Shown here: positions 991 to 26,741 of the stretch, in pieces
Position numbering within the stretch: position 1 is the stretch's first letter
How the letters are laid out: each line of letters starts with the position of its first letter
Origin: an uncultured Clostridia bacterium
Lineage (GTDB): Bacteria > Bacillota > Clostridia > Christensenellales > Borkfalkiaceae
DNA length: 32,767 nucleotides
NCBI GenBank assembly: GCA_947625865.1
Contig: CANQQD010000017.1
Coordinates: forward strand, 1-32,767
Direction: 5' to 3'
Notes under the pieces: model-generated
What the model was told of the DNA's origin: nothing
Seen by the model: only the letters and a program-made list of their open reading frames with translations
Databases searched by the model: none
Program-made: the position numbers and the translations under genes

Positions 991-1021
991 TATAGTGAAC
1001 CCAATCAGACTGACACATTAT

Positions 1022-1026
1022 GAGGT
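1022..1026 (+). promoter_or_regulatory. Ribosome binding site fixing the start at 1032
   Basis: GAGGT stands 5 nt before ATG 1032. An in-frame ATG at 1020 overlaps this site and lacks its own Shine-Dalgarno sequence. Starting at 1032 also gives a clean signal peptide beginning MNKFKK. Confidence 0.75.
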
Positions 1027-1031
1027 ACCGG

Positions 1032-4000
1032 ATGAATAAATTTAAAAAAATACTTCTTATATGCCTTATTGCGTGCTGCACGGTGGCTTGCGCCGCAGCG
1101 GCGGCGTGCAGTTCGGTGCACAACTGGCGCGTTCCCAACGGGGGCGTCGTTGACGACGGCTCGGTAGACGAGAACAACCCCAACGGTAATTTGCCCTTCT
1201 ACTACCCCGCGGGCGTGGATCCCTCGGACTATGAGGATAAGGCGACCGCATATACCATTAAAACGGTCAGCATGGGCGGTCTGCCCATCGACGGCGTGCG
1301 CATTACCATCAAGGATATGAGCGGCGAAACCGTGGTAGAGGGAATTTCCATCGGCGGCTCGGCATCGTTCGGCATCGAGCTTGGCGAGTACACCGTGGAA
1401 TACTCCTCCCTGCCCCGCGGCTACAGCGAGGACCCCGAGGGCACAATAAAGCATCTTAACGCCGAAACGACGACTGTGACGACGGCGTTCACCTCCTCCG
1501 TAATAACCGGACAGGTTCCCGCCGGACTTACCTATAACCTCGGCGATATCATGTATGACTTTTCCGCGACCGACGCAAACGGTCAGACAATGGTGCTCTC
1601 GCAGATATTGCAGAACAAGCGCGCGGTGCTTTTGAACTTCTGGGCTACGTGGTGCGCGCCTTGCAGGGCGGAATTCCCGATAATCGACGAGGCTTATAAC
1701 CAATACAAGGATAAACTCGAGGTCATAGCAATATCGACCACTGACCAGAACGCCGCCGTAAAGGCTTTTAAAGAGGACGCCGGCTATAGCTTTTTTATGT
1801 CTGCCGACAATGCGGGGCTCTCCTCCCGCTTCGATACCTCCTCTATACCTGTTTCGGTAATGATAGACCGCTACGGCGTTATATCCTATCTGGATCCGGG
1901 CGCGGTGACAAACCTGCAGATATGGCTGAATATGTTCGAAACGTTCACTGCGGATAATTACGAACAGAGTATCCAGCAGGGTCAAGGCGGCGACACCGGC
2001 GAGGAAGCGGAGCCCGTTAAGGCGCCCGACGGATATGAAATGCCTTCGGACGACGAATTGACTCGGGCGTTGCTCGACCCCTCGATGGCGGGAAGCAGCC
2101 TGCACTTCTACGAGCCCGCGGCTGACACCCGCGACGGAATATACAACTGGCCCTTTAAGGTTGCCGACGATCCCGCCGGAGCATATATCACTCCCTCCAA
2201 CACGGGCAAAACTCCCACTACCGACAACACGTGGTCGATAGTTTATACGGACGTGGAGCTCGAAGCCGACCAGACTTTATCCATTGACGTCAGGGTGAAG
2301 AGCGATCCCGACGATATACTCTATATCTCACTGAACAACTCGGCAGAACTCACGTTCACCCGTTCGGGCGACACGGGCGGCTGGGAGACCATAACGCTTT
2401 TGAGCTCCACCCGTTATATGTCGGTGAACATTGCGATATTCTATATAAAGAATTATGTGGTCACGGACAACGAGGAATTTGTGGGCGTGAGAAACCTCAA
2501 GGTAGCCGACAACTCCTACGACTCGGACGCTCCCCTCGATGTGCGCACCGAGGCCGTGAAGGTCGTTGACGGAAAGCCCGAATATCCCAACGTCTATAAG
2601 GCGGGCGACGGCTTCTACCACATTCAGCAGGGCGAAACGCCCAACGAGGCGACAGACTCGATGCTGTTTGCCGACATACTTGCGGAATCGCAGTGGTCCG
2701 ATCTGCACCTTGCAAACTACACGCTTGTGCACTCGGAAAACGGGCAAAGCGTTACGCTTACAAAATCGCTCTACCTCATCTCCTACTGGCACGTCGCTTT
2801 CGGCGACGCCGCAAACAAGGGCGACACTCCCCTCAACTTCCAATACGGAACGAAGGAGACGGACACCGTCATAGATAACTACTGGATACAGGACGGCACA
2901 CAATATATGTCGCCTGTGAACGACGCGCTTATGACGGCGCTCAAGGCGTTCGCCAAACGCGCAAGCGAACAAATAGTGGAATACGAGGGCTACGGCGCGG
3001 GCGAAGCAAGCTACAACGAGAACACCTGGCTGGAGCTTTGCAGCTACTACCGCACTCTCGGCGGCGACCACAGCGCAGAAGGTCACTCCTGCCTTGCTCA
3101 TTATAATCCCGGCACAGGCAAGACGCTCTCCTACGCCATAGATACGCACGTCGGCGAGAGATTTACCGTTGACCTTACCAACGGACAGAAAAAGAACCGT
3201 GCGGGCGGCCTGTTCTTTAAGTTCACGGCGCCTGAGGACGGCGTATATAAGATAACGTCATTCCGTCCCTACGGATCCGACGACCCCATAGACCCCAGCA
3301 TAATAATCTGGCCCGAGGGCTCGGACGCGTACAACGATCCTCCCCTTCTGAGACAGGACGACTGCCACAGCCTGGAGAGATATGCCCGCAACGACGACAA
3401 TATATACACCAACAACATTATGGCGTATATCTACCTTACGGCAGGGCAGACGATATATCCCCAGCTGACCGTTGAAGAGGGCGATATTTCGCAGGTAGTT
3501 CAGCAGTATATCGATTCGCATATCGACGTGACATATGAGGCGCAGATCGATTATGTGGGCGCAACGGCGCATATACTCACCCTTGCCGGCACTGACGGCA
3601 CATGGGAATCTATGACTAAATTCAACGCCGTTCCCACCATACTTCAGAACGATTACGATCCCTTAACGAGCGCTGACGTGCCGACCTACCATCACCTGAT
3701 CGACGGCTACGGCGCAGGCTCGGAAATGTTTATAGACTTTATACATCCGAACTATATGGCGCCCACCTCCACCATCGAAGAGATGCTCAAGACAGACTAC
3801 TTCGATCTCGGCGACGTGGATTATACCTCGGAAATGAAGGGGCTGCTTGAACAAGCAAAGGCAAAGGATCCGGACGACCTCACATACGGTATGCTCCCCG
3901 CGACCGACAGACTCGTGCGTATAATAAGCGCGGTAATACAGAACCGCAGCGACGACGGCGACGGCATAGAATCGGGCGCATGGGAAGGCTTTGCATACTA

Positions 4001-4046
4001 CTGGCAGTACTACGGACCCACCGTTTGGGAACCGACCGCCGAATAA
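1032..4046 (+). CDS. Extracellular TlpA/ResA-type thioredoxin lipoprotein with a long uncharacterised C-terminal region
   Basis: This 1004-aa protein begins with a lipoprotein signal peptide; Cys26 after an Ala run is the likely lipidated residue, with Cys20 as an alternative. Residues about 72-155 look like a small carboxypeptidase-regulatory-like beta domain. Residues about 168-305 form a TlpA/ResA-type thioredoxin fold with FWATWCAPC (active-site Cys208 and Cys211) and a cis-Pro motif near Pro273, so thiol-disulfide exchange outside the membrane is expected. The remaining 700 residues are acidic, Tyr-rich and beta-rich. Residues about 513-745 resemble a region of the collagen-like lipoprotein at 4638-7175 and include a PPC-like stretch (FFKFTAPEDGVYKITSF). 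TlpA-family proteins are normally 150-370 aa, so the extension is exceptional. The gene leads a three-lipoprotein unit. Its electron donor is unknown; the polyferredoxin-thioredoxin protein encoded convergently at 7289-9466 is an attractive candidate. Confidence 0.82.
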   Translation: MNKFKKILLICLIACCTVACAAAAACSSVHNWRVPNGGVVDDGSVDENNPNGNLPFYYPAGVDPSDYEDKATAYTIKTVSMGGLPIDGVRITIKDMSGETVVEGISIGGSASFGIELGEYTVEYSSLPRGYSEDPEGTIKHLNAETTTVTTAFTSSVITGQVPAGLTYNLGDIMYDFSATDANGQTMVLSQILQNKRAVLLNFWATWCAPCRAEFPIIDEAYNQYKDKLEVIAISTTDQNAAVKAFKEDAGYSFFMSADNAGLSSRFDTSSIPVSVMIDRYGVISYLDPGAVTNLQIWLNMFETFTADNYEQSIQQGQGGDTGEEAEPVKAPDGYEMPSDDELTRALLDPSMAGSSLHFYEPAADTRDGIYNWPFKVADDPAGAYITPSNTGKTPTTDNTWSIVYTDVELEADQTLSIDVRVKSDPDDILYISLNNSAELTFTRSGDTGGWETITLLSSTRYMSVNIAIFYIKNYVVTDNEEFVGVRNLKVADNSYDSDAPLDVRTEAVKVVDGKPEYPNVYKAGDGFYHIQQGETPNEATDSMLFADILAESQWSDLHLANYTLVHSENGQSVTLTKSLYLISYWHVAFGDAANKGDTPLNFQYGTKETDTVIDNYWIQDGTQYMSPVNDALMTALKAFAKRASEQIVEYEGYGAGEASYNENTWLELCSYYRTLGGDHSAEGHSCLAHYNPGTGKTLSYAIDTHVGERFTVDLTNGQKKNRAGGLFFKFTAPEDGVYKITSFRPYGSDDPIDPSIIIWPEGSDAYNDPPLLRQDDCHSLERYARNDDNIYTNNIMAYIYLTAGQTIYPQLTVEEGDISQVVQQYIDSHIDVTYEAQIDYVGATAHILTLAGTDGTWESMTKFNAVPTILQNDYDPLTSADVPTYHHLIDGYGAGSEMFIDFIHPNYMAPTSTIEEMLKTDYFDLGDVDYTSEMKGLLEQAKAKDPDDLTYGMLPATDRLVRIISAVIQNRSDDGDGIESGAWEGFAYYWQYYGPTVWEPTAE

Positions 4047-4091: not shown

Positions 4092-4556
4092 ATGAAACTT
4101 TTTAAAAGACTTGCCGTAACTTTGACGGCGATCATGGCGGTCGTGGGTATTGCAGTATTTGCGGCGGCATGCGACAAGGGCGGCAACGAAGAAGGATACG
4201 CTACCGATACCTTTACCGTTACAGTGCTCGGCGAGGACGGAAATCCCTTTGACGGAACACAGGGCGATTCCGGACTCAACGTAAAAATACAGTTTTGTGC
4301 GGTTAAACCGGACGGCGACGCAAGCGCATGCTTTGCGGACCGGTTCGATGTTGGAACGGACGGCAAGGCAACCGTGGATCTTACAAAAATAAAAACGTTT
4401 GTTACAAATAATGAAACCAACAAATTTATTATACATGTTGCCAACCTCGACGGCCAAGGTTATTCGAGCGATGGAAATTACGGCGTGTATGAAATAGACA
4501 AAGTGCCCAAAACAATAACCATTAAGCTCGATAAAAATCAACCGGTAACCATTTAA
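4092..4556 (+). CDS. Small lipoprotein with one beta-sandwich-like domain
   Basis: This 154-aa protein has a signal peptide of about 26 residues and a likely lipidated Cys27 (AAAC followed by DKGG). The mature part is one domain opening with FTVTVLGEDGNP and containing a GTDGKATVDL strand. This layout resembles the carboxypeptidase-regulatory-like or prealbumin-like domains near the N-termini of both flanking lipoproteins. GGAGG at 4077-4081 is 10 nt before the ATG, and the gene lies 45 nt after the previous stop with no terminator between, so co-transcription is likely. It has no catalytic motif. A binding or accessory role beside the larger lipoproteins is inferred only from position. Confidence 0.72.
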   Translation: MKLFKRLAVTLTAIMAVVGIAVFAAACDKGGNEEGYATDTFTVTVLGEDGNPFDGTQGDSGLNVKIQFCAVKPDGDASACFADRFDVGTDGKATVDLTKIKTFVTNNETNKFIIHVANLDGQGYSSDGNYGVYEIDKVPKTITIKLDKNQPVTI

Positions 4557-4566
4557 CAACTGACTG

Positions 4567-4592
4567 AGGGCTTTGCCGCAAGACAAAGCCCT
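4567..4592 (+). terminator. Weak hairpin, possible attenuating terminator
   Basis: AGGGCTTTG (4567-4575) pairs with CAAAGCCCT (4584-4592) across an 8-nt loop. Only a broken T tract (TGATTTAT) follows, so partial termination or 3'-end stabilisation is as likely as full termination before the next gene. Confidence 0.45.
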
Positions 4593-4637
4593 TGATTTAT
4601 AAAAACGCATACTCTGCGTATGTTAAGGAGACATTAA

Positions 4638-7175
4638 ATGAAAAAGAAAAGGATATTTCTTGCAGTGCTCGCCTCGATGTGCGTTGCGGCGGGCGCGGCG
4701 GGGCTTGCAGCCTGCGGCGGAAGCAACGACACGCACGATCCCGCACTCTATGCGGCATATCAGACATATGCCGCCGAAAACGAGGACGCTAAGCCCTATG
4801 AGGAATGGGTAGCGGACATTTTATCGAAGCTCGGAGCCACCGGCGGACAGGGCGACGACGGTCAGCAGGGCGATAAAGGCGACAAGGGCGACCCCGGTGA
4901 ACGCGGCGACGACGGCATGGACGGACTCGACGGCGAGGACGGCGTGAGCATCGACGACGTGAAGATGGTGGAATTAAACGGTAAGCAGTACTTTGAGTTT
5001 ACATTCTCAAACGGTAAAGTAATAAGACTTGCCGCGGACGGTTCGGACAGACAGGAGACGACGGCGTTTACCATAACTGCGGTAGACAACAACGGCGACC
5101 CCGTTGCGGACGCTTACTTCAACATTGGTTATGGCGAGAGCCAATTTACGGAACGCCTGACAAAGAGCGGCGCCACCACTACCAACGCCGCCGATTATTA
5201 CGCGGTGAAAACCAACAGCAAGGGCGTTGCAACCTTCTACCTCTTCCCCGAGGCGGGCGAGCACACATATAACGTATATATCGCCGACCCCGTGTCTATC
5301 TCTAACGACGGCGCCGTTTCCAACGTGCCGCACGGATACACGTTGAACTTCGGCACTTCGCACGGACTGAACAACACGAGCGCCGAGTTTTCAAAGGGCG
5401 CGGACGGCAGTTACTCCGTTACCGTAAACTTCATTGTGGATAACAGCTGGGGCTCGCTGTACGACTACGCAAACGACCTTGAATACAAGCGTTATGCAAC
5501 CGACCCCCTCCACTCGGACGAGATAACCGAAGCCAAAAAGGCTTATGTGAAGAGAGCGGTCAAGGACAAATATAATTATTTCTCATTCAGTCCCTATAAT
5601 CTGAACATGCCCGCGGGCGAGCTGAACGAGGAAGAGGAAAATACGGTCACCCAAAAGGCGATAGACGCAGCCTCGGGCGTATATAGATTTTCATTCAAGG
5701 CGGGCAACTCGGGCGCGCACGTGCAGCTGAGAGTGTTCGACTTCCTGAACGGAAGCTACTTTGTTAAAAACGGGGACGGTTCGCCCGCGGAGTCGCTGAT
5801 ATTGCAGCGTTCGGGCAGCGCGCCCACCGACAGCGGCGAGTTGCAGGCGGCTTATCAGCAATACCGCGCAGCCGAGGGAAATTCGGCGCTCGGATATGAA
5901 GCATGGCTTGCGGCATATACCGCATCCTTCAGCGGAGGCGACTACGTTGAGCTCAAGGTGGAACAGGACCAGGCATCGGCAATGTTCTGCCTCGGGTTCG
6001 TCACCGATATAAACTGCGACGTGACGATAACGGTTGAGAGAGTGGGCGACGTTACCAAGTGGTCAAACACCTACTCCACTGCCTCCATGCCCGAGGGCGA
6101 GGAGCAGGCGGTGGAGAATGACGGCAGAATTTTGGACGTGCCCATGAACTCGGTAATCGTCCGCGACGACGGCGGCGTTTATCACATCGGCAGCCTGACA
6201 GGTCCCGAGATATATGTACAGCTCAAAAATCCCACCCGCGCAAACGGCAGCTTTTCAATGGAATATCTTTCGGACTATTCCGAAACTTCTGCCGGTCCCG
6301 GCGGCGGCACCACCTCGGAGCACCTGACGGTGTTCAACTACTACACCGAAACCGTTGACGAGGCAACCAACACGGGCACGAGAGAATATATTGACTACAC
6401 CAACGTTGTTAAAGGATATTCCGCGCTTGCTAATTCCGACGGCGGATATCCCGTGAACGACCTTCTGAAAACCGTACTCGAAAACTTCTGCAAGAGCTAT
6501 GTAGGCTGGAGCAGCTACGACGAATATTGGGTGGCGGCATGCTATTACTACGGCGCGCCCTCCGACGGCTCCGAAGCCTCGCCCTACGACGTAAATACAG
6601 GCAATAATTCCGTGACCTTGAACAGCACAACCTATCTCTCGTTCAAACCCGCGACCTCGGGATATTACGTGCTCTCCACCACTGCGGGCGCCTTGGCGGC
6701 CGAGGGCGGAACATTAATAGACGGCAAGGTTTATGCCTATGCTTCAAGCTCGCAGGGTATAACCTTTACCGTCACTGGCAGCGGCACGGCTACCGTAAAC
6801 ATTGCAGCTGTTCCCGCAAACTCAGTGATAGGATATTCCGAAACGTTTAGCCAAAACCCCGACGGAACATTTACGCAAAACACTGTAGGCACGGCTGAAA
6901 ATCCCGTGAGAAAGAGCGGCTCGGGCGTATATCAGGTAAATATAGACCACTCGATATACAGCGGAAAGGTCGCGGTGGATTTCACGGCGATGCTTGACGC
7001 CGACGGCAACTACAGGTTCGAGATCTTCGGCAGTTCCACCGCCACTATCGTAGTGAACGGCGAACAACTTCAAAGCGGCAGCAGCGTTGCGCTCACCAAC
7101 GCGACGGCTGTGAGAATGTTGTTTGACGACATAAGCGACGGAACGTTCTTCATTAAAGTGACAAAGCTTTCCTGA
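4638..7175 (+). CDS. Large lipoprotein with a collagen-like Gly-X-Y segment
   Basis: This 845-aa protein has a textbook lipobox LAAC with Cys26 lipidated. Residues 39-63 (AAYQTYAAENED...YEEWVAD) resemble the linker that often precedes collagen-like repeats in Bacillota surface proteins, and residues 66-102 carry Gly at every third position (12 triplets, rich in Asp and Lys, one Pro). A short closing motif with NGK and FSNGKVIRL follows. Residues 142-268 are a beta domain similar to the neighbouring 154-aa lipoprotein. The linker motif recurs at residues 404-430 without any Gly-X-Y run. Residues about 502-690 resemble part of the 1004-aa TlpA lipoprotein, and the C-terminus (SGSGVYQVNI onward) looks PPC-like. 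AAGGAG at 4625-4630 is 7 nt before the ATG. A surface structural or adhesive role is likely; no enzymatic motif is visible. Confidence 0.78.
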   Translation: MKKKRIFLAVLASMCVAAGAAGLAACGGSNDTHDPALYAAYQTYAAENEDAKPYEEWVADILSKLGATGGQGDDGQQGDKGDKGDPGERGDDGMDGLDGEDGVSIDDVKMVELNGKQYFEFTFSNGKVIRLAADGSDRQETTAFTITAVDNNGDPVADAYFNIGYGESQFTERLTKSGATTTNAADYYAVKTNSKGVATFYLFPEAGEHTYNVYIADPVSISNDGAVSNVPHGYTLNFGTSHGLNNTSAEFSKGADGSYSVTVNFIVDNSWGSLYDYANDLEYKRYATDPLHSDEITEAKKAYVKRAVKDKYNYFSFSPYNLNMPAGELNEEEENTVTQKAIDAASGVYRFSFKAGNSGAHVQLRVFDFLNGSYFVKNGDGSPAESLILQRSGSAPTDSGELQAAYQQYRAAEGNSALGYEAWLAAYTASFSGGDYVELKVEQDQASAMFCLGFVTDINCDVTITVERVGDVTKWSNTYSTASMPEGEEQAVENDGRILDVPMNSVIVRDDGGVYHIGSLTGPEIYVQLKNPTRANGSFSMEYLSDYSETSAGPGGGTTSEHLTVFNYYTETVDEATNTGTREYIDYTNVVKGYSALANSDGGYPVNDLLKTVLENFCKSYVGWSSYDEYWVAACYYYGAPSDGSEASPYDVNTGNNSVTLNSTTYLSFKPATSGYYVLSTTAGALAAEGGTLIDGKVYAYASSSQGITFTVTGSGTATVNIAAVPANSVIGYSETFSQNPDGTFTQNTVGTAENPVRKSGSGVYQVNIDHSIYSGKVAVDFTAMLDADGNYRFEIFGSSTATIVVNGEQLQSGSSVALTNATAVRMLFDDISDGTFFIKVTKLS
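4833..4943 (+). repeat. Collagen-like Gly-X-Y coding repeat
   Basis: Thirteen glycines spaced exactly three residues apart encode GATGGQGDDG onward to GEDG. The X and Y positions are mostly Asp, Lys, Gln, Glu and Arg, with a single Pro, so any triple helix would be held by charge pairs rather than by Pro. Confidence 0.85.
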
Positions 7176-7198: not shown

Positions 7199-7230
7199 TA
7201 AAAGACCGATAAATTTTTATCGGTCTTTTA
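7199..7230 (+). terminator. Terminator of the plus-strand lipoprotein unit
   Basis: TAAAAGACCGATAAA (7199-7213) and its complement (7216-7230) form a near-perfect stem ending in TCTTTTA, 23 nt after the last stop codon. The A-rich left edge means it could also work on the minus strand. Confidence 0.88.
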
Positions 7231-7248
7231 TTTGTGCTTATGCCGTAA

Positions 7249-7284
7249 AAAAAACAGGCGACCGAACCGGAACGCCTGTTTTTT
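7249..7284 (-). terminator. Terminator of the minus-strand operon, probably bidirectional
   Basis: AAAAAACAGGCG (7249-7260) pairs with CGCCTGTTTTTT (7273-7284) around a 12-nt loop. Both strands end in a T tract. It lies 4 nt beyond the stop of the polyferredoxin-thioredoxin gene and so closes the minus-strand operon; it also backs up the plus-strand terminator. Confidence 0.9.
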
Positions 7285-7288
7285 GTGT

Positions 7289-9466
7289 TTAGTTTAATGC
7301 CGCTTCTATGGCGGGCGTCAAATCATCGAGATGTCCGTTTACCACTGCACCCTGCCGCACAAAGGTTATATAGCCTTCGGCATTGACAACCACCGTTATG
7401 GGGTAGGAGTCCTTGCCGCCGAGGCGGGTCGCATAGAAGTCCGCGCCTATATCCTGACCGAAAATTATCTGCCAATTTGACCAGCTCGCTTTGTTTCTTG
7501 CGGAATCTTCGGAATCTATAAAGCTCTGTGCGCGGGGCACGTCGTCGTTGTTGGCGTGAACGGCGAGCGTTACCACCTTGTCGCCGTACTGTTCGGTTAC
7601 ATTTTCAATATAGGGCAATTCCTCTACGCAGGGACCGCAGCTTACGTACCAGAAGTTGATCACAAGCACCTTGCCGCGGGCGCTCTCCGTGGAGAACGTT
7701 CCCTCCTTGTAGGAGCTTTGATAGGTGTTTACGGTGAAGTCATAGAGCTTATCGCCCACTCTGTAGACCGTGGCGTCCCTTGCGCCCGTTATGTCCGTAT
7801 GAATTTCTTCAGCCGTCAAAGGACGATTGTTGCGGGTGTAAACCTCGCTGTGGACATTGAGGACGACAGTCATGGGGAACGCGCCGTCGCCGCCGCAGTC
7901 GGAATAGGCGTTAAAGTCATTCTCATCCTGTACAAAAGGAATGTTATAACTGTTAAAGCCGTGGTCGTTTATTATATTCTGAACGGTATCGCGAGAATCG
8001 CTGTTTACCACGTGAACGGCGACTATGTTTGCCTCCTCGGTGAGCGAGGGAAGGCTTTCGCCAAGATCTTCAAGATATTCTATACTTGTTTCGTTCCTTG
8101 ACGACCAGAACACGAGCACCGTAGGCTTGTCGCTGTTTTCATAGAGCGTATAGCTCTCGCCCTCGTATGCAGTCTGATAGGTTTGAGCGGTAAAGTCGTT
8201 TACCTGTTTGCCGAACGACGCGCTTGCCACGGGCTGTATGTTGTAGTAGACGAGCGCGGCTACAAGCAGACAAGCTGCGAGCGACCAAGCTACTATTTCC
8301 AAAACCTTGCTTGTCTTTGTGCGGACATAGCGGACCTTCTGCATTTTGGGCTTGTTTGCCGCAGGTTGAGCGCTTTCCGATTTTTCAGCCTGTGCTACGG
8401 TTGCCGCGGAAAGGTTTGCTTCCGTCCGGACCGCGGAGGTCTGAACGGCGGCTTCGGAGGTGTTGACCTCTGCGGGGGCGTCGACGGAGGCTGCGCCCGC
8501 GGGCATTGCCGTGCCGCTGACAAGTATTGCGTTCAACGCCGAGCCCGCGCTTGCGGGAGCCGCGGAAGCCGTTATACCCGCCGAAACGGGTTCTACAAAG
8601 AGCTTGCCGCCCTTCCAGCTTATTGCGTGCGTGGGGCAGACGGGTATGCACTCGCCGCAGTTTATGCATTCGTGGTCGCCCACATGCCGTATATCCATTT
8701 TACATTTGGATATGCACATGCCGCAGTCTATGCACTTGCTCTTTTCGAGCTTGACGCCCAAAAGCGCTATGCCGTTGAAGAAGCCGTAGATAGCGCCGAG
8801 GGGGCATACGAAACGGCAGAAGCCTCTATACACGAAAATACAGAGCACTATGAACATCACAAGCAGACAGAACTTCCAGCTGAACAAATAGCCGAGCATC
8901 GCGTAGAGGTCGTTGTTATACTCGCTTGAAAGCAAGCTCACCGAGCCTCCGAACGTGCCTGCGGGGCAAATATATTTGCAAAAGCCCGGAACGTTGTGAT
9001 ATATGAGCGGCACGGCTATCACCAGAGTTATCAAAAGCAGATACTTCAGATAACTGAGTATGCGCGTTGCCGCGCTCTTTTTGAGTTTGGGCGATTTTAC
9101 CTTGTACAAAAGGTCCTGCGTGAGACCGAACGGACAGAGAAAACCGCAGATCGTTCTGCCGAGAATGAGCCCGAACAGAGCTATGATGCCTAAAATATAG
9201 TAGGGCGTTGTATTGCCCGAGGAACCGAGCGAGTTCTGCAACGCGCCCAAGGGGCATGCCGCGACCGCGCCCGGGCAGGAATAACAGTTTAAACCGGGTG
9301 TGCACACGTTTTTGGTTGCGCCCGTATATATCTGACCCTCGCCGAAGCCCTTCAGATTTGCGTTAGTAAGTAACGCCGCGTAAAGCTGAATGATCCTCCT
9401 GCGGGTGGGAGCGTGATTTTTGAACCACCTGCCCGCTCCCGTGAAAAACGATTTGATCTTACCCAA
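7289..9466 (-). CDS. Membrane polyferredoxin fused to two thioredoxin-like domains
   Basis: This 725-aa protein joins an electron-transfer half to a thioredoxin half. Residues 1-240 hold several membrane segments and Fer4_5/NapH-like cysteine groups: C55/C61/C64/C71 (CYSCP, CPLGALQ), C107xxxC111P, C163xxxC167P and C217xxxC221P. Residues 245-277 carry two classical 4Fe-4S motifs (C245, C248, C251, C255; C267, C270, C273, C277). An Ala/Ser-rich linker (about 300-375) and a basic stretch lead into a membrane helix (about 388-408) that should place the C-terminus outside. The first thioredoxin-like domain (about 418-560) has FWSSRNET where CxxC is expected, but keeps a cis-Pro-like FP. The second (about 572-725) has an intact C610-GP-C613 and YP689. 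A role as a transmembrane electron conduit to extracellular thiols is inferred. It is the last gene of the operon and starts with TTG inside the upstream gene. Confidence 0.87.
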   Translation of the reverse strand: MGKIKSFFTGAGRWFKNHAPTRRRIIQLYAALLTNANLKGFGEGQIYTGATKNVCTPGLNCYSCPGAVAACPLGALQNSLGSSGNTTPYYILGIIALFGLILGRTICGFLCPFGLTQDLLYKVKSPKLKKSAATRILSYLKYLLLITLVIAVPLIYHNVPGFCKYICPAGTFGGSVSLLSSEYNNDLYAMLGYLFSWKFCLLVMFIVLCIFVYRGFCRFVCPLGAIYGFFNGIALLGVKLEKSKCIDCGMCISKCKMDIRHVGDHECINCGECIPVCPTHAISWKGGKLFVEPVSAGITASAAPASAGSALNAILVSGTAMPAGAASVDAPAEVNTSEAAVQTSAVRTEANLSAATVAQAEKSESAQPAANKPKMQKVRYVRTKTSKVLEIVAWSLAACLLVAALVYYNIQPVASASFGKQVNDFTAQTYQTAYEGESYTLYENSDKPTVLVFWSSRNETSIEYLEDLGESLPSLTEEANIVAVHVVNSDSRDTVQNIINDHGFNSYNIPFVQDENDFNAYSDCGGDGAFPMTVVLNVHSEVYTRNNRPLTAEEIHTDITGARDATVYRVGDKLYDFTVNTYQSSYKEGTFSTESARGKVLVINFWYVSCGPCVEELPYIENVTEQYGDKVVTLAVHANNDDVPRAQSFIDSEDSARNKASWSNWQIIFGQDIGADFYATRLGGKDSYPITVVVNAEGYITFVRQGAVVNGHLDDLTPAIEAALN

Positions 9467-10277
9467 GCCCGATACACTCCGTACAAATTCTTATAGCCTT
9501 ATTAAAGACTTCGCGTACACTGCCGTTGCAGCAGCCTGCTATGACGAACGCGACGCCGAGGCAGGCAACTGCTATTCTTATCCCGAGCTTGAAATACTTG
9601 TGCGTGACTATCCGCATAAATTTATTCTGCACAGCCGCCGCGGGGGCCTTTACGCCCGCCGTGAGCTTTTTGACGTGCGGCAGCTGCTTTTTTGCGGAGA
9701 TCTTATACGCCGTCACATATAAAAGCGCAGCTACGAATAATATTGCGCCGACGGGCAGAAGATACTTTGCCATATTCAGCATATCCGCCGTTTTATCCAC
9801 GTTGGGGAAGTTTGACGGCACGCACATGTAGACCACTACCAACACGAGATATACACATACCATGGCTATGAGCAGCCAATAAATCGCTTTTAAAATTTTG
9901 TTTTGGCTTTTCACATAGTCAAGGGAGCTTTTCAGCTTCCCCTCCGCCTCCTGCGGCAGCCGCTTTTCAAGCCTCTTCAAAACATAGCGGGGATCGGTGA
10001 TCGGGGAAATTTTTTCCCTGACGGGGAACACCTCGCACAGAATAAATCCCACCGCTATCATGGCTATCCATATCCAGAACGGCGCGGCGAGTATTCCGAG
10101 ACGCTCTTCAACGAGCTCGCGCGAAAACGGGCTGGTGTTGCCCGCAGCGACGCCGCCCGTATAAATATCGAGCGTCTGCCATATGAAGAGTGCGCCCACT
10201 ATTATAGTGAAAGCCGCAAAGACCCACTTATAGACGAGCTGCACTGTTTTATTTGTGCTTTCATTTACCTTGTTCAT
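9459..10277 (-). CDS. Five-helix membrane protein with a C-terminal CxxC tail (CD1871A-like ending)
   Basis: This 272-aa protein shows five hydrophobic segments (starting near YKWVFAAF, APFWIWIA, AIYWLLIA, YLLPVGAI and GIRIAVAC) with a basic loop between the second and third. The last residues read FNKAIRICTECIGLG, with Cys265 and Cys268. From memory, this ending closely matches small clostridial proteins named CD1871A family CXXC motif-containing, which occur beside 4Fe-4S membrane proteins and thioredoxin-like genes. Here the tail is attached to extra membrane helices and overlaps the polyferredoxin-thioredoxin gene by 8 nt, so the two products probably form one redox complex. The start at 10277 was chosen because it lies 5 nt after the preceding stop and gives a normal N-terminus; its ribosome site is weak, so coupling is likely. 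The family name could not be tested here. Confidence 0.75.
   Translation of the reverse strand: MNKVNESTNKTVQLVYKWVFAAFTIIVGALFIWQTLDIYTGGVAAGNTSPFSRELVEERLGILAAPFWIWIAMIAVGFILCEVFPVREKISPITDPRYVLKRLEKRLPQEAEGKLKSSLDYVKSQNKILKAIYWLLIAMVCVYLVLVVVYMCVPSNFPNVDKTADMLNMAKYLLPVGAILFVAALLYVTAYKISAKKQLPHVKKLTAGVKAPAAAVQNKFMRIVTHKYFKLGIRIAVACLGVAFVIAGCCNGSVREVFNKAIRICTECIGLG
9464..9480 (-). promoter_or_regulatory. TTG start and GGAG site embedded in the upstream gene
   Basis: The start TTG (9464-9466) overlaps the last codons of the CxxC-tail gene by 8 nt. GGAG (9477-9480 on the minus strand) precedes it by 10 nt. The overlap suggests translational coupling between the two membrane proteins. No in-frame ATG fits the conserved N-terminal region. 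Confidence 0.6.
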
Positions 10278-10282
10278 AGCAT

Positions 10283-10549
10283 TTAACTCAGCCACAGATA
10301 TGCCAACAGCCAGATAACGCCGAAAATCGCCGCCACTCCCAAAAGGAAGGGCCACATCGCGGCGAACGCGCCGCGTACCATCTGCCAGTACTCGCGGCGG
10401 CTGATCTTAGGGGGAATTACACCCTTATTCTGTTCACGGCGCTTTTCCAGATTGGGGTCGTACCACTTGAAGCCCTCTACGTTCATGTTTGCAAAGGTCG
10501 TGGTAGTATCCAACTCCGGTTTTTGGCGCTTTTGACGCTTCTTGGGCAT
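10283..10549 (-). CDS. Small basic membrane protein, 88 aa, unknown function
   Basis: The product starts with a highly basic stretch (MPKKRQKRQK), contains a central WYDPNLEKRREQNKG segment, and ends in one membrane helix (MWPFLLGVAAIFGVIWLLAYLWLS). The basic N-terminus should stay in the cytosol. The start at 10549 is supported by GGGAG 7 nt upstream; longer in-frame versions would run into the OppF gene. It sits 13 nt after oppF and 5 nt before the CxxC-tail gene, at the junction of the transport and redox halves of the operon. I do not recognise the family. A small subunit of the redox complex or of the transporter is possible. Confidence 0.7.
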   Translation of the reverse strand: MPKKRQKRQKPELDTTTTFANMNVEGFKWYDPNLEKRREQNKGVIPPKISRREYWQMVRGAFAAMWPFLLGVAAIFGVIWLLAYLWLS

Positions 10550-10562
10550 ATCTGTGCTCCCG

Positions 10563-11642
10563 TTAATTATTTTTCGACTCGGGATAGGGCGATATACTCG
10601 TCTCTGCGTCGGTGTACGCCGCCTTGAAGCCGAGAGGATCAGCCATGTATGCGGGGTCGTACAGATGGCAGGCGCAGAAGTGCCCCGGGGTGACCTCCCT
10701 GTATTCGGGCGCAACGCTTTCGCATATGCTCATACAGCTTTCGCAACGGGTATGGAACTTGCAGCCCGAGGGGGGATTTACCGGCGAGGGAATATCGCCT
10801 TTAAGTATTACTCTGTTCATCTTTATGTGCACGTTGGGAACGGGCACGGCGGAGAACAGCGCCTTTGTGTAGGGATGAAGGGTGTTGTTGAATATATCGT
10901 CCTTAGAGCCGTATTCCACGAGGCTGCCGAGATACATTACGCCCACTTCGTCCGAAATGTGCTTTACGACCGAGAGGTCGTGGGAAATAAATACATATGT
11001 CAGCCCGAGAGTTTTTCTGAGCTCTATGAGCATGTTTATTATCTGTGCCTGTATGGATACGTCGAGAGCCGAGACGGGCTCGTCGCATATTACAAGCTCC
11101 GGTTTGAGGGCAAGCGCGCGGGCAATACAAATTCTCTGGCGCTGTCCGCCCGAAAATTCGTGGGGATATCTCTCGAAATAGTGGGACTGGAGCCCGCACA
11201 TCTTCATTACGTCCGTGACGTAGTCATAGAAATCCTTTTTCCCGACGATCCCGTGCTGGCGCGCCGCTTCGCCGATTATTTCACCGACGGTGAGCCTCGG
11301 CGAGAGGCTGGCGTAGGGATCCTGAAATATCATCTGCATATTGGGACGGCGCTTGTCGAATTCGCTGTTGGAAAGATCGGAGATCTTTTCGCCCTTGAAC
11401 CACACCTCGCCGCTCGTTACGTCGTACAGGCGGAGGATAGTCCTGCCCATAGTCGTTTTTCCGCAGCCGCTTTCTCCCACTATGCCGAGCGTCTTGCCCT
11501 TTTCTATTTTAAAGGACACGTTATCCACGGCTTTGAGCCATGCGTTGGGTTTGCCGAAAAAGTCCTTACCTACCACAAAGTGCTTGCAGAGGTTCCGTAC
11601 TTCGAGGAAGGCTTCCGACTTGTATTCTTCGATCTCAGCCAT
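10563..11642 (-). CDS. oppF: Oligopeptide ABC transporter ATPase, OppF type
   Basis: This 359-aa protein has all ABC ATPase motifs: Walker A GESGCGKTT (residues 56-64), Q-loop FQDP near 106, signature FSGGQ (163-167), Walker B LVICDEP (183-189) and the switch His221. The C-terminal Opp/Dpp extension (from about 255, LHPYTKALFSAVP) carries four spaced cysteines in the CKFHTRCESCMSIC region, a pattern known to bind an Fe-S cluster in several OppD/DppD/OppF proteins. It hydrolyses ATP at the cytosolic face to power peptide import through OppB and OppC. The start overlaps the oppD stop by 8 nt with AAGGAGG 6 nt upstream, which indicates translational coupling. The substrate could be peptides in general or another family member such as nickel, so the symbol is by similarity. 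Confidence 0.93.
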   Translation of the reverse strand: MAEIEEYKSEAFLEVRNLCKHFVVGKDFFGKPNAWLKAVDNVSFKIEKGKTLGIVGESGCGKTTMGRTILRLYDVTSGEVWFKGEKISDLSNSEFDKRRPNMQMIFQDPYASLSPRLTVGEIIGEAARQHGIVGKKDFYDYVTDVMKMCGLQSHYFERYPHEFSGGQRQRICIARALALKPELVICDEPVSALDVSIQAQIINMLIELRKTLGLTYVFISHDLSVVKHISDEVGVMYLGSLVEYGSKDDIFNNTLHPYTKALFSAVPVPNVHIKMNRVILKGDIPSPVNPPSGCKFHTRCESCMSICESVAPEYREVTPGHFCACHLYDPAYMADPLGFKAAYTDAETSISPYPESKNN

Positions 11643-12960
11643 TTGCTTCCTCCTTTCCTTCGGCTTCCCTGTCGTCTCCGTTACCGTACAGATAGCAAGC
11701 CACCTTATGGGTGGGCGTTACCTGTACATATCCGGGATATTCGCCCGAGCATTTCTGCATGCACCTGTCGCACCTGTCGCGGAAATAGCAGTAATCGGGC
11801 ATATTTATGGGGTTGGGCACAAATCCGGGTATGCAATAGAGTTCGTCGGTGACCTGATCCACCGTGGGCTTGCTCTTTTGCAGACCTATTGTGTAGGGGT
11901 GGAGCGGGCGGTCGAAGATATCCTCCGCCGTGCCCATCTCTATCACCTTGCCCGCGTACATTACGACCACGTAGTCAGCCATTTCGGCTACGACTCCCAA
12001 ATCGTGCGTTATCAGCATTATGCTGCCGTTTATCTTGCCCTTGATCTCTCTCAACAGATCGAGTATCTGCGCCTGTATCGTAACGTCGAGCGCGGTCGTG
12101 GGCTCGTCGGCTACGATAAGCTTGGGGTTGCAGAGAAGCGCTATGGCTATCATTACCCTCTGGCGCATACCGCCCGAAAGCTCGTGAGGATATTTTTTGT
12201 AAACGCCCTCGGGGTCGGCTATGCCTACGAGCTTAAGCATTTCGATGCTGCGCGCCTTTACGCGCTCCTTGGATATGCCCTGTATGTGGAGCCTGCCCAC
12301 CTCGTCAAGCTGGTTGCCTATGGTGAATACGGGGTTCAGGGAGGTCATGGGCTCCTGAAAGATCATTGAAATTTCTCTGCCGCGGATAGTACGCATGGCG
12401 TCGGTGGGCATTTTGGCTATATCCACAACCTGCCTCTCCATTTCGTACATGGTGCCGCCGAGTTCGTTCTTTTTTACTATTTTTTTGCCGTGCTCGTCGA
12501 GCTTCGGAATATCGTTGCCGTTTTCGTCCTTTTCGGTCTCATATACGGGGATCTTCCTGCCGCGGCTGTCGCGCTTGAACATGTCGGCGCGGAAACGTAT
12601 GGAGCCGCTGACTATCTGTCCGCTGGGAGCCTGCACGAGGCGCATGAGGGAGAGCGAGGTCACGGATTTGCCGCAGCCGCTCTCGCCGACCACGCCCACG
12701 GTGGAGCCTGCGGGGACGGAGAAGGTCACGCCGTTTACCGCCTTTACCGTGCCTGCGTCCGAAAAGAAATAGGTGTGAAGGTCGTCAAATTCCACTATGT
12801 TATTCTCGTCCTTCATCTCCGTTAAATACTCTTCGGGGCGCGCTTTGCGCTTTTTAGCCCTTTCGAAGCGGCGTATGGCTTTGGAATTCTCTTTGGCAAT
12901 CTGCCTCGATTCCTTATGAGATATATAATGTTGTTTTTTATCCGATTTGTTTTCAGCCAT
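11635..12960 (-). CDS. oppD: Oligopeptide ABC transporter ATPase, OppD type, with an N-terminal extension and a charged insert
   Basis: This 441-aa protein pairs with OppF in the transporter. Motifs: Walker A GESGCGKSV (residues 92-100), Q-loop FQEP (201-204), signature LSGGM (261-265), Walker B LIVADEP (281-287) and His319. The C-terminal Opp extension again carries four cysteines (CYFRDRCDRCMQKC region). Two features are unusual: a 50-residue Lys/Arg-rich N-terminal extension before the ABC domain, and a highly charged insert (about 124-183) between Walker A and the Q-loop. Typical OppD proteins are about 330-350 aa. AGAGG 6 nt before the ATG supports this start; an internal Met50 would remove the basic extension and has no such site. 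The gene lies 3 nt after the oppC stop. Confidence 0.93.
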   Translation of the reverse strand: MAENKSDKKQHYISHKESRQIAKENSKAIRRFERAKKRKARPEEYLTEMKDENNIVEFDDLHTYFFSDAGTVKAVNGVTFSVPAGSTVGVVGESGCGKSVTSLSLMRLVQAPSGQIVSGSIRFRADMFKRDSRGRKIPVYETEKDENGNDIPKLDEHGKKIVKKNELGGTMYEMERQVVDIAKMPTDAMRTIRGREISMIFQEPMTSLNPVFTIGNQLDEVGRLHIQGISKERVKARSIEMLKLVGIADPEGVYKKYPHELSGGMRQRVMIAIALLCNPKLIVADEPTTALDVTIQAQILDLLREIKGKINGSIMLITHDLGVVAEMADYVVVMYAGKVIEMGTAEDIFDRPLHPYTIGLQKSKPTVDQVTDELYCIPGFVPNPINMPDYCYFRDRCDRCMQKCSGEYPGYVQVTPTHKVACYLYGNGDDREAEGKEEANG

Positions 12961-12963
12961 TTG

Positions 12964-14103
12964 TTACCTCTTCATCTTCGGGTCGAACGCGTCGCGTAAG
13001 CCGTCGCCGACAAAGTTAAACGCGAGTATTGCAAGCGTTATGCAAATGCCGGCGCCTATCCACATGTTGGGATAGAACTGCCTGTACCTCAGCTGGGAGG
13101 CAAAGTTGACCATGTTGCCCCACGTTGCGGTTTCGGGAGGAGCGCCTATGCCGAGGAAGCCCAATGTTGCCTCCATCAAGATTACGCTGCCGAGTCCCAA
13201 GGACATCGAAACTATGAGCTGGGGTATGACGTTGGGCAGAAGGTGCTTGAAAATTTTGGAGCTTGTGGAAAGTCCCGAGCACTTTGCGGCAAGCATGAAC
13301 TCCTGCTCCCTTAACGACAATATCTGCCCGCGTACAAGCCTTGCGGTGCCCACCCAGCCTATAAGACATAGCACCGCCATTATTATATACAACTTCCATA
13401 TAGTGCCCGTAATGGCGGGGAAGCCGTCGAGCGCGTAGCCGAGGATCAGCATCAACGGTATTGTGGGTATGCAGCTCAAGAGGTCGACTATTCGCATTAT
13501 TATGCTGTCGACGACTCCGCCGAAATAGCCCGCTATGCCGCCCAATACAACGCCTATCAGCGTTTCGAGAATTATTACGACAAAGCCTATGGTGAGCGAT
13601 ACTCTGCCGCCGTACATGAGCCTCGTCATTATGTCGTAGCCGCTGTTGTCGGTGCCCATCCAGTGGCTCGACGACGCGTCGTCGAGAACGTTGAGCCCGG
13701 CGTTCCAGTCATAGGTTATGGAGTAGCCGTCGTAGGTCTCTCCGTCCACCTCATAGGAAAACATTGTGCCGGAAATATTCGGATCGGTACGCGAAACGTC
13801 CGCTTCGGTTTCGCCCCAAGGCGAAAGCAAGGGACCTATGAAGGCGAACACGAACAGAAGTATTATCGTGACTAAGCCTATCATAGACAGCTTCGAGCGG
13901 AAGAAACGCTTTGCAACGGTGGCGCCGGGGGAGAGAGCCTTTACCCTGTCGCCCAAATTTTCACCGTGCAGATCGTCCTCCTTTACTGTTGTCCGAGGGG
14001 CTTCAAGTTCCTCCTCCATTTCGGCTTCAAGCCGTATTTCGGGGTCTTCAAGCCCGCCTTCGGACCGGATCTCGGGTTGAATTTCTTTTTTATTCTCTTC
14101 CAT
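12964..14103 (-). CDS. oppC: Oligopeptide ABC transporter permease, OppC type
   Basis: This 379-aa inner-membrane permease has an N-terminal helix (about 72-94), the family segment HWMGTDNSGYDIMTRLMYGGR (147-167), and a BPD permease domain with the EAA loop REQEFMLAAKCSGL around 265-280. The last helix precedes the conserved GDGLRDAFDPK tail. With OppB it forms the peptide channel. The first 65 residues are an unusual, strongly acidic cytosolic extension; the neighbouring OppD has a strongly basic N-terminus, so the two could interact. Residues 107-145 add a short external insert (GETYDGYSITYDW). GAGG 5 nt before the ATG supports the start. Confidence 0.93.
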   Translation of the reverse strand: MEENKKEIQPEIRSEGGLEDPEIRLEAEMEEELEAPRTTVKEDDLHGENLGDRVKALSPGATVAKRFFRSKLSMIGLVTIILLFVFAFIGPLLSPWGETEADVSRTDPNISGTMFSYEVDGETYDGYSITYDWNAGLNVLDDASSSHWMGTDNSGYDIMTRLMYGGRVSLTIGFVVIILETLIGVVLGGIAGYFGGVVDSIIMRIVDLLSCIPTIPLMLILGYALDGFPAITGTIWKLYIIMAVLCLIGWVGTARLVRGQILSLREQEFMLAAKCSGLSTSSKIFKHLLPNVIPQLIVSMSLGLGSVILMEATLGFLGIGAPPETATWGNMVNFASQLRYRQFYPNMWIGAGICITLAILAFNFVGDGLRDAFDPKMKR

Positions 14104-14110
14104 GGTGTCC

Positions 14111-15112
14111 TCACTTTCCGAGTTTGACTCTGGGATCCACTACCGCATACATGATATCCGATAGCAGTATGCCTATGACGGTCAGAATTGCAATAAACAT
14201 ATTGTAGCCCATTGCAAGGGGTATGTCGCCCTTCATGAGAGCGTCGTAGGTGATCTTGCCTATGCCCGGGATACTGAACACGGTCTCCGTTATCATTGCG
14301 CCGCCGAAGAGCATCGGGAGCGTTGACGCCATTACCGTGACCAGAGGGATCATTGTGTTGCGGAAAACATGCTTATACACGACCTTGCCCTCGGAGAGTC
14401 CCTTTGCGCGCGCCGTCCTTATATAGTCGGCGTTGAGTACCTCCAAGGTGTTCGTGCGCTGGTAACGCATATAGGAGCCGACGTTCAAAAGAACGAGCAC
14501 GACCATGGGAAGCACGAGGTGCCAGAGCATATCGGTAAACCTCGTCCAACCCGTTGCCGTGACCGGCAAGGTTGAAGATACAAGACCAAGCGACGGGTCG
14601 AACCAGCCTAACGTGTCGGCAAACCACATTATAAACAGGTTGCCCAAAAAGAATGTGGGGAACGCCGTGAGGGTCATTGTAACTACCGTTGCGGTGTAGT
14701 CCAGCTTTCCGTACTGGTTTACGGCGCACTTTATGCCGAGAGGTATGGCGATTATAAGCTCGAAAATGAGGGACACGAAGGATATACCGAAGGATATGCC
14801 CATATTTTCGAGGATTATCTCGTTGACCGGTCTGTTATGCACAAAGGACGTACCCATGTCGCCCTGTATAAACTTTGTAAGCCAGCCGAAGTAACCCTTT
14901 AAAATTCCTCCGAAGCTGTTGTCGTCCAGTCCGTACAGGGCTTTGAGCGCGTTATACTTCTCTTCGCTTATGCCGCCGTTGCCGGCAAGCGTGGCGTAGG
15001 TGTTGTCGATATAGTCCATCGGCATCAGCCTTATTATGAAGTATATTATCATAGATACTCCCACCATAATGAATACGGACAGGAGGAGTCTTTTGACTAT
15101 ATATTTAACCAT
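14111..15112 (-). CDS. oppB: Oligopeptide ABC transporter permease, OppB type
   Basis: This 333-aa permease begins with the family-typical MVKYIVKRLLLSVFIMVGVS helix, followed by an external loop containing GDMGTSF. The permease domain holds the EAA loop NADYIRTARAKGLSEGKV (about 227-244) that contacts the ATPases. It ends in DIMYAVVDPRVKLG, typical of OppB/DppB. It is 24 nt after the binding-protein gene and 7 nt before oppC, the standard operon order. The ribosome binding site is weak (GGA about 12 nt from the ATG), so translation may depend partly on upstream translation. Confidence 0.93.
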   Translation of the reverse strand: MVKYIVKRLLLSVFIMVGVSMIIYFIIRLMPMDYIDNTYATLAGNGGISEEKYNALKALYGLDDNSFGGILKGYFGWLTKFIQGDMGTSFVHNRPVNEIILENMGISFGISFVSLIFELIIAIPLGIKCAVNQYGKLDYTATVVTMTLTAFPTFFLGNLFIMWFADTLGWFDPSLGLVSSTLPVTATGWTRFTDMLWHLVLPMVVLVLLNVGSYMRYQRTNTLEVLNADYIRTARAKGLSEGKVVYKHVFRNTMIPLVTVMASTLPMLFGGAMITETVFSIPGIGKITYDALMKGDIPLAMGYNMFIAILTVIGILLSDIMYAVVDPRVKLGK

Positions 15113-15136
15113 TTTTTAAATATCCGTGTTTATTTA

Positions 15137-26719: not shown

Positions 26720-26723
26720 ATTT

Positions 26724-26728
26724 ACCTC
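26724..26728 (-). promoter_or_regulatory. Ribosome binding site fixing the protease start
   Basis: GAGGT on the minus strand is 4 nt before ATG 26719. The preceding gene stops at 26742, so a longer version of the protease would overlap it by more than 100 nt and would bury the signal peptide behind 53 residues of unrelated, Arg-rich sequence. Confidence 0.8.
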
Positions 26729-26741
26729 AATTATTGCGGGC

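Follow-up and report, generated by a model that had tools for sequence, protein, structure and literature searches.

A stretch of 32,767 nucleotides from an uncultured gut Clostridia bacterium of the Borkfalkiaceae (hereafter the window) encodes, in a 725-codon open frame starting with TTG, a membrane protein that probably acts as a transmembrane reductant of extracytoplasmic thiols driven by low-potential Fe-S electrons from the cytosol. In this protein a NapH-like polyferredoxin is followed by a linker, a fifth helix and two TlpA-fold domains (Table 1). Its Pfam matches above the curated cut-offs are Fer4_5 (three stretches), Redoxin/AhpC-TSA (two stretches) and Fer4-type motifs. With Fer4_5 over the cut-off, two CX3CP sites and two C-terminal 4Fe-4S motifs, it belongs to the NapH-like proteins (PF12801 superfamily), while scoring below the cut-offs of the NapH models themselves (TIGR02163, 69.8 vs 213.05; NF007013, 43.9 vs 234). 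Likewise, it is a member of the TlpA/ResA thioredoxin-fold proteins (PF08534, 70.8 bits vs a cut-off of 26.6), its predicted model matches folds of the ResA/StoA/Etrx2 type, and its score with the ResA model NF002854 (63.2) lies below the cut-off of 170. The Pfam search of the protein gave no match to the CcdA/DsbD membrane domain (PF02683) or to the catalytic domain of ferredoxin:thioredoxin reductase.

Table 1. Location of the fused gene, its parts and its putative partners in the window.
Position	Strand	Feature	Basis
1020..4046	+	1008-aa lipoprotein with its own TlpA domain (CAPC), candidate electron acceptor	family models, Pfam, genus presence/absence
7289..9466	-	fused polyferredoxin/TlpA membrane protein, 725 aa, TTG start	ORF, Pfam, family models, homologues, alignment
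7292..7780	-	second TlpA-fold domain, CGPC at 7628-7639	Pfam, model, alignment
7787..8215	-	first TlpA-fold domain, without CxxC	alignment, model
8237..8305	-	fifth transmembrane helix, residues 388-410	sequence, charge analysis
8315..8596	-	Ala/Pro/Ser-rich linker, low model confidence, basic stretch at its end	model, charge count
8597..9466	-	NapH-like membrane polyferredoxin, residues 1-290	Pfam, alignment, NapH comparison; AF2 pLDDT 84
8636..8734	-	2x[4Fe-4S] ferredoxin domain, C245-C277, predicted cytosolic	
8804..8818	-	CX3CP C217/C221, predicted inner face	sequence, alignment
8966..8980	-	CX3CP C163/C167, predicted outer face; absent from E. coli NapH	alignment
9134..9148	-	CX3CP C107/C111, predicted inner face	sequence, alignment
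9254..9304	-	C55/C61/C64/C71, motif CxPGLNCYSCPGAxxACP, predicted outer face; absent from E. coli NapH	alignment
9459..9466	-	8-base overlap of CD1871A stop and TTG start of the fused gene	sequence
9459..10355	-	CD1871A-family protein, 298 aa, five predicted helices, C-terminal tail 9462-9572, CxxC 9474-9485	NF040920 model, helix/charge analysis

The joining of polyferredoxin and thioredoxin halves in a single protein, proposed in a sequence-only reading of this DNA, is real and conserved. Both halves are present in all of the best 120 of 4023 homologues, each of which combines the polyferredoxin motif with one Trx-type CxxC; 73 of these 120 are at least 660 aa long and 47 are shorter. In the window's genus, 21 of 37 genomes carry the fused gene, with frames of 558-608 aa in 15 of them (one TlpA domain, judging from length) and of 705-734 aa in five; the frame of the last (G022) is interrupted by the contig end, yet spans the first TlpA region. 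The form with two TlpA domains is one of two common forms. The concern voiced in the earlier reading, that the fused form might be a gene-prediction artefact not conserved in relatives, can therefore be rejected, since those 120 homologues possess both halves, the 21 genus genomes carry the fusion, and the polyferredoxin cysteines are kept in 40 fused relatives. Stop codons flagged in the polyferredoxins of four genomes (G151, G206, G091 and G100) turned out, on reading, to lie where the genes end.

The Fe-S and CxxxCP motifs of the N-terminal half are those described before, and their cysteines can now be specified further: C55, C61, C64 and C71 are followed by CX3CP sites at 107/111, 163/167 and 217/221 and by two 4Fe-4S motifs at residues 245-277, with the CGPC of the C-terminal half at 610/613. 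In alignments of hand-picked sequences, all 18 polyferredoxin cysteines are conserved in 40 out of 40 fused relatives, and 17 of them in each of 83 polyferredoxins, C71 being found in 82. Aligned E. coli NapH has the four predicted inner cysteines and the eight of the ferredoxin domain and lacks the six predicted outer ones. The region formerly read as thioredoxin-like (residues 418-725) does consist of two TlpA-fold domains, but only the second has the active-site cysteines: it carries CxPC in 40/40 aligned fused relatives, whereas the first (residues 418-560) shows CxxC in none of the 22 rows that contain both domains.

An extracytoplasmic location of the TlpA domains, which had been argued from a basic stretch before the final helix, is supported by prediction. 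The flanks of the fifth helix have a mean net charge of +5.55 before and -0.17 after it, an inside-out bias seen in 40/40 fused relatives, and the separate TlpA partners encoded elsewhere (see below) display a lipobox-like pattern in 52 of 74 cases; most of them look exported. Three clear helices (2, 3 and 4) separate the C55-C71 loop from the ferredoxin domain and, with the latter inside, this count predicts that C55-C71 and C163/C167 face outward and C107/C111/C217/C221 inward. Helix 1 is, however, weakly hydrophobic (mean 0.45) and the loop 49-86 is positive (3.1 K/R vs 0.1 D/E), which both speak against an outer C55-C71, so that this placing rests on the three-helix count plus the argument for outer TlpA domains.

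The fused gene looks like a fusion within a widespread set of three genes, for a TlpA lipoprotein, a CD1871A-family protein and a polyferredoxin. The gene overlapping its start encodes a protein that reaches 38.1 bits (cut-off 32) with the CD1871A model NF040920, which describes a 38-residue tail with CxxC; the TTG start occupies the identical position in 112 of 132 loci. In the set of 61 relatives, the distribution of CD1871A coincides with that of this polyferredoxin: the 25 polyferredoxin genomes (21 with the fused and four with the split form) all have it and the 36 others do not. Genomes counted as carriers when their match had an E value of 1e-45 or lower, which sets aside weaker matches of NapH-like or ferredoxin type in G037, G042, G056, G040 and others; the four NapH-like loci fetched from these named genomes had neither the NCYSC motif nor, within the fetched stretch, a CD1871A tail. 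In a class-wide sample of 196 genomes, CD1871A was present in 31/31 strong polyferredoxin carriers (35 minus four weak matches of about 110 bits, in G146, G150, G244 and G249) and gave a single sub-cut-off match among the 165 others.

Two of the four order-level relatives with a separate polyferredoxin (L023 and L026) have the gene order TlpA-CD1871A-polyferredoxin; in the third, CD1871A was found through the model search (G052), and in the fourth the TlpA match is weak (G058). A scan with one genome per species yielded at least 592 stretches, all encoding polyferredoxin relatives, and the best 80 of these loci include Lachnospiraceae, Oscillospiraceae, Blautia luti, Angelakisella, Schaedlerella, and others. 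CD1871A adjoins the polyferredoxin, upstream of it, in 79 of the 80 (78 by the model and one, L089, on reading), and a TlpA-family ORF is present in 75, the fused locus L110 included; CxxC occurs in the searched part of 73 of the 74 separate TlpA partners. The five remaining loci (L037, L087, L090, L099 and L107) encode CD1871A and the polyferredoxin with no TlpA match in the fetched stretch, which points to the CD1871A-polyferredoxin pair as the tighter core. Three of them (L087, L099 and L107) share similar upstream ORFs, AzlC-like by eye, and a different acceptor is possible there. Clustering the neighbours of the 80 loci revealed no further gene at a frequency like that of the trio; the next clusters, two-component-like ORFs (21/80) and ABC ATPase-like ORFs (9/80), correspond to large families, and the former may indicate a regulatory link or merely family size. 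The sequence-only reading was largely right though incomplete, and is partly supported: it overlooked CD1871A, the six predicted outer cysteines, the lack of an active site in the first TlpA domain, and the widespread split forms.

In the CD1871A tail, the CxxC stands four residues from the C-terminus in 132/132 loci (0-8 allowed). The tail test covered 136 loci and failed in L067, L089, L116 and L141 (the tail of L089 is present on reading, and L116 has a TGA). Because some of these loci had been fetched with that same CD1871A model, this count is biased, unlike those for the 80 loci and for the genomes. A free C-terminus of invariant length suggests that the tail docks in a fixed site. In small forms of the protein (n=108), the N-terminal flank is the more positive one in 96, equal in 11 and less positive in one, and the basic loops of the five-helix form of the window alternate, so the CxxC tail is predicted to lie outside. 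The name CD1871A did not appear in the open-licence literature searched.

Onto these computed domains, conserved cysteines, gene linkages and co-occurrences, and onto the predicted topology, we place a donor and a series of electron transfers that we infer. Reduced ferredoxin or a similar cytosolic donor would charge the cytosolic 2x[4Fe-4S] domain, from which electrons may pass to an inner-face site (C107/C111/C217/C221) and across the membrane to an outer-face site (C55/C61/C64/C71/C163/C167). The latter would reduce the CxxC in the free C-terminal tail of CD1871A which, if it precedes TlpA in the chain, could in turn reduce the CGPC of the second TlpA domain; surface disulfides would be the final acceptors, with the neighbouring TlpA lipoprotein as first candidate. 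Reduced ferredoxin as the direct driver, suggested in the earlier reading, is a putative donor, and the path probably passes through further cysteines. In this best explanation, the choice between clusters and dithiols at the CX3CP sites is also one that we infer. A bolder form of the proposal, conceivable but on balance doubtful, would be a third class of transmembrane thiol reducer beside the CcdA/DsbD relay and the routes that use quinones or hemes: here an Fe-S wire would run unbroken across the membrane to an outer cluster, with the C-terminal CxxC of CD1871A supplied in trans as the adjacent active site, that is, a site like that of ferredoxin:thioredoxin reductase split over two membrane proteins.

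Under that bolder form, an in-frame UGA found in one genome (G156, locus L116) would represent a selenocysteine version of the site. A TGA (1512-1514) stands there at the first CxxC cysteine of CD1871A, and G156 encodes a SelB over the cut-off (385.5 bits). No second CD1871A with TGA for cysteine was found in 391 class genomes, where the genus of G156 is represented by one genome; the RNA downstream of the TGA folds no better than shuffles (z -0.25), and no TlpA ORF was seen in the 3.5-kb stretch of L116. The family name and accession of CD1871A are absent from the accessible main text of a 2026 selenoproteome review. We treat the selenocysteine form as a lead, a nonsense mutation or a read error being possible as well.

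The membrane module could instead work as a thiol relay, in a CcdA-like manner, with clusters confined to the ferredoxin domain, the CX3CP cysteines passing electrons, and the outer cysteines and CD1871A forming a dithiol chain. Cysteine pairs are indeed available at each predicted stage and, in the part of PMC5928378 available to us, NosR contains no more than eight Fe each and the CX3CP cysteines of NosR and RdhC are argued to be likelier disulfides, which counts against extra clusters at these sites. However, the six outer cysteines, two beyond the need of one 4Fe-4S cluster, and the motif CxPGLNCYSCPGAxxACP are compatible with a cluster as well; we regard a thiol relay as the less likely reading, if the strongest of the alternatives. 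Less probable still is that the system serves an outside peroxidase or small-molecule reductase, its TlpA/AhpC-like domains reducing peroxides and the like and protein disulfides being secondary. The Redoxin/AhpC-TSA matches would agree with such a role, as would the five of 80 loci with CD1871A and polyferredoxin and no TlpA match, where acceptors may vary, but CxPC in 40/40 second domains and the ResA/StoA/Etrx2-type matches of the model speak for thiol-disulfide exchange.

CcdA and DsbD are thiol relays that supply TlpA/ResA-type proteins with reducing equivalents through the membrane. No CcdA/DsbD match was obtained in any of the 37 genus genomes, carriers or not, including the window's own (94% complete). 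Such matches are rare among the 61 nearer relatives (0/25 carriers, 4/36 others) and, in the class sample, rarer in carriers (8/31) than in non-carriers (90/165; Fisher p 0.0055, kinship ignored). Within one genus (g123), G206 possesses the polyferredoxin and CD1871A and has no CcdA/DsbD match, and G182, G229 and G250 show the reverse. A NapGH-like activity, in which menaquinol would supply the TlpA electrons, is suggested by the kinship with NapH, which has been proposed as a quinol-oxidising part (PMC5928378, in its available part). Matches to the UbiA family do occur in five of 42 carriers (three over the cut-off), but this quinone prenyltransferase family is unmatched in the other 37, including the window's own 94% complete genome, whereas 14/14 controls are positive; some carriers are incomplete assemblies. 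A quinol donor is accordingly very improbable and can be set aside. These absences fit an Fe-S donor side, as advocated in the earlier reading, better than one of thioredoxin or quinol. Operation in reverse, with surface thiols oxidised and electrons delivered to ferredoxin, is hardly credible: electron wires are reversible in principle, but transfer from a dithiol to ferredoxin is uphill, and the CxPC site is presumably thioredoxin-like and not DsbA-like.

For a reductant fed by cytosolic Fe-S electrons, the first candidate substrate or relay is the 1008-aa TlpA lipoprotein of the window. TlpA-bearing frames of at least 880 aa are encoded by 20 of the 21 fused-form genomes of the genus vs two of the 16 others (Fisher p 2.7e-7, kinship ignored), in counts made by hand with the 880-aa limit set afterwards. 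The two others (G005 and G036, genus g1) have the big lipoprotein without the fused gene or CD1871A, which is a point against the proposal. Two more lipoprotein-like ORFs lie between this gene and the fused one (4092-7175, forward strand); one contains a short collagen-like stretch just below the cut-off, and the 845-aa ORF of this region resembles by eye the C-terminal part of the 1008-aa lipoprotein. At 7200-7290, between the convergent genes, two hairpins with T/A runs are likely terminators, judged by eye. Directly upstream of CD1871A and on the same strand is an oligopeptide ABC transporter cluster (10563-17866), whose solute-binding protein was recognised by Pfam and whose ORFs resembling permeases and ATPases were picked out by eye; a small basic ORF for a membrane protein sits in between, and a single transcript is possible. 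Two very large surface proteins follow on the reverse strand, namely a 2525-aa subtilisin-like ORF with leucine-rich-like repeats, seen by eye (19301-26878), and an ORF of 1739 aa in which a GLUG motif is found (26742-31961).

An operon of this make-up is already in print. The available part of a preprint of November 2025 (PMC12637426) describes a previously uncharacterised three-protein operon, encoding TlpA together with a 4Fe-4S and a CxxC protein, in Clostridia and their relatives; Blautia wexlerae and Anaerostipes hadrus are two of its sources. According to the preprint, the operon predicts immune-related adverse events of immunotherapy, and its authors bring up the possibility that targets outside the cell or on its surface are reduced. 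The three kinds of component are likewise linked here, as the fused form plus CD1871A in the window and as split trios elsewhere. The operon's 4Fe-4S protein has 3-4 transmembrane segments and the CxxC gene lies in between in all instances but one; unlike in the window, TlpA is a separate gene, and the likeness is one of architecture and of the Blautia luti locus L081. In that part of PMC12637426 we found neither a fused form nor the topology, outer cysteines or electron path described here, and no other paper describing the three-gene set was recognised in the open-licence literature. If the proposed mechanism is true, anaerobes could draw on their low-potential Fe-S pool to keep extracellular thioredoxins reduced, with no need of cytosolic thioredoxin, quinones or CcdA. 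It would also provide a mechanism for a gene set spread across gut Clostridia (at least 592 matching stretches), whose like is tied to immune side effects of cancer therapy (PMC12637426, available part), and a function for CD1871A, with the fused protein as a convenient single chain for testing it.

Among known systems, the NapH/NosR/RdhC module shares with the fused protein Fer4_5, two C-terminal 4Fe-4S motifs, and two CX3CP sites, which align with C107/C111 and C217/C221; the fused protein differs by its six extra cysteines, and its partners are CD1871A and TlpA where the module has NapG or an FMN domain. In contrast with CcdA/DsbD, it has no PF02683 domain and its donor side would be Fe-S and not cytosolic thioredoxin. 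In ferredoxin:thioredoxin reductase, ferredoxin electrons also end on a thioredoxin CxxC, but that enzyme is soluble and of a different fold. The NapH-NapG fusion polyferredoxin of MLMS-1 likewise unites NapH helices, a fifth helix and an extracytoplasmic redox domain in one chain, although its outer domain is a Tat-exported 4Fe-4S domain and not a thioredoxin fold (PMC5449189, available part). In flavinylated systems, too, a NapH-like Fe-S membrane protein feeds an extracytosolic redox domain, fused or separate, whose carrier is covalent FMN instead of a thioredoxin fold (PMC8238504, available part). Set beside these systems, the fused protein represents a variant form of electron delivery by NapH-like proteins, and the mechanism proposed for it is attractive and can be tested.
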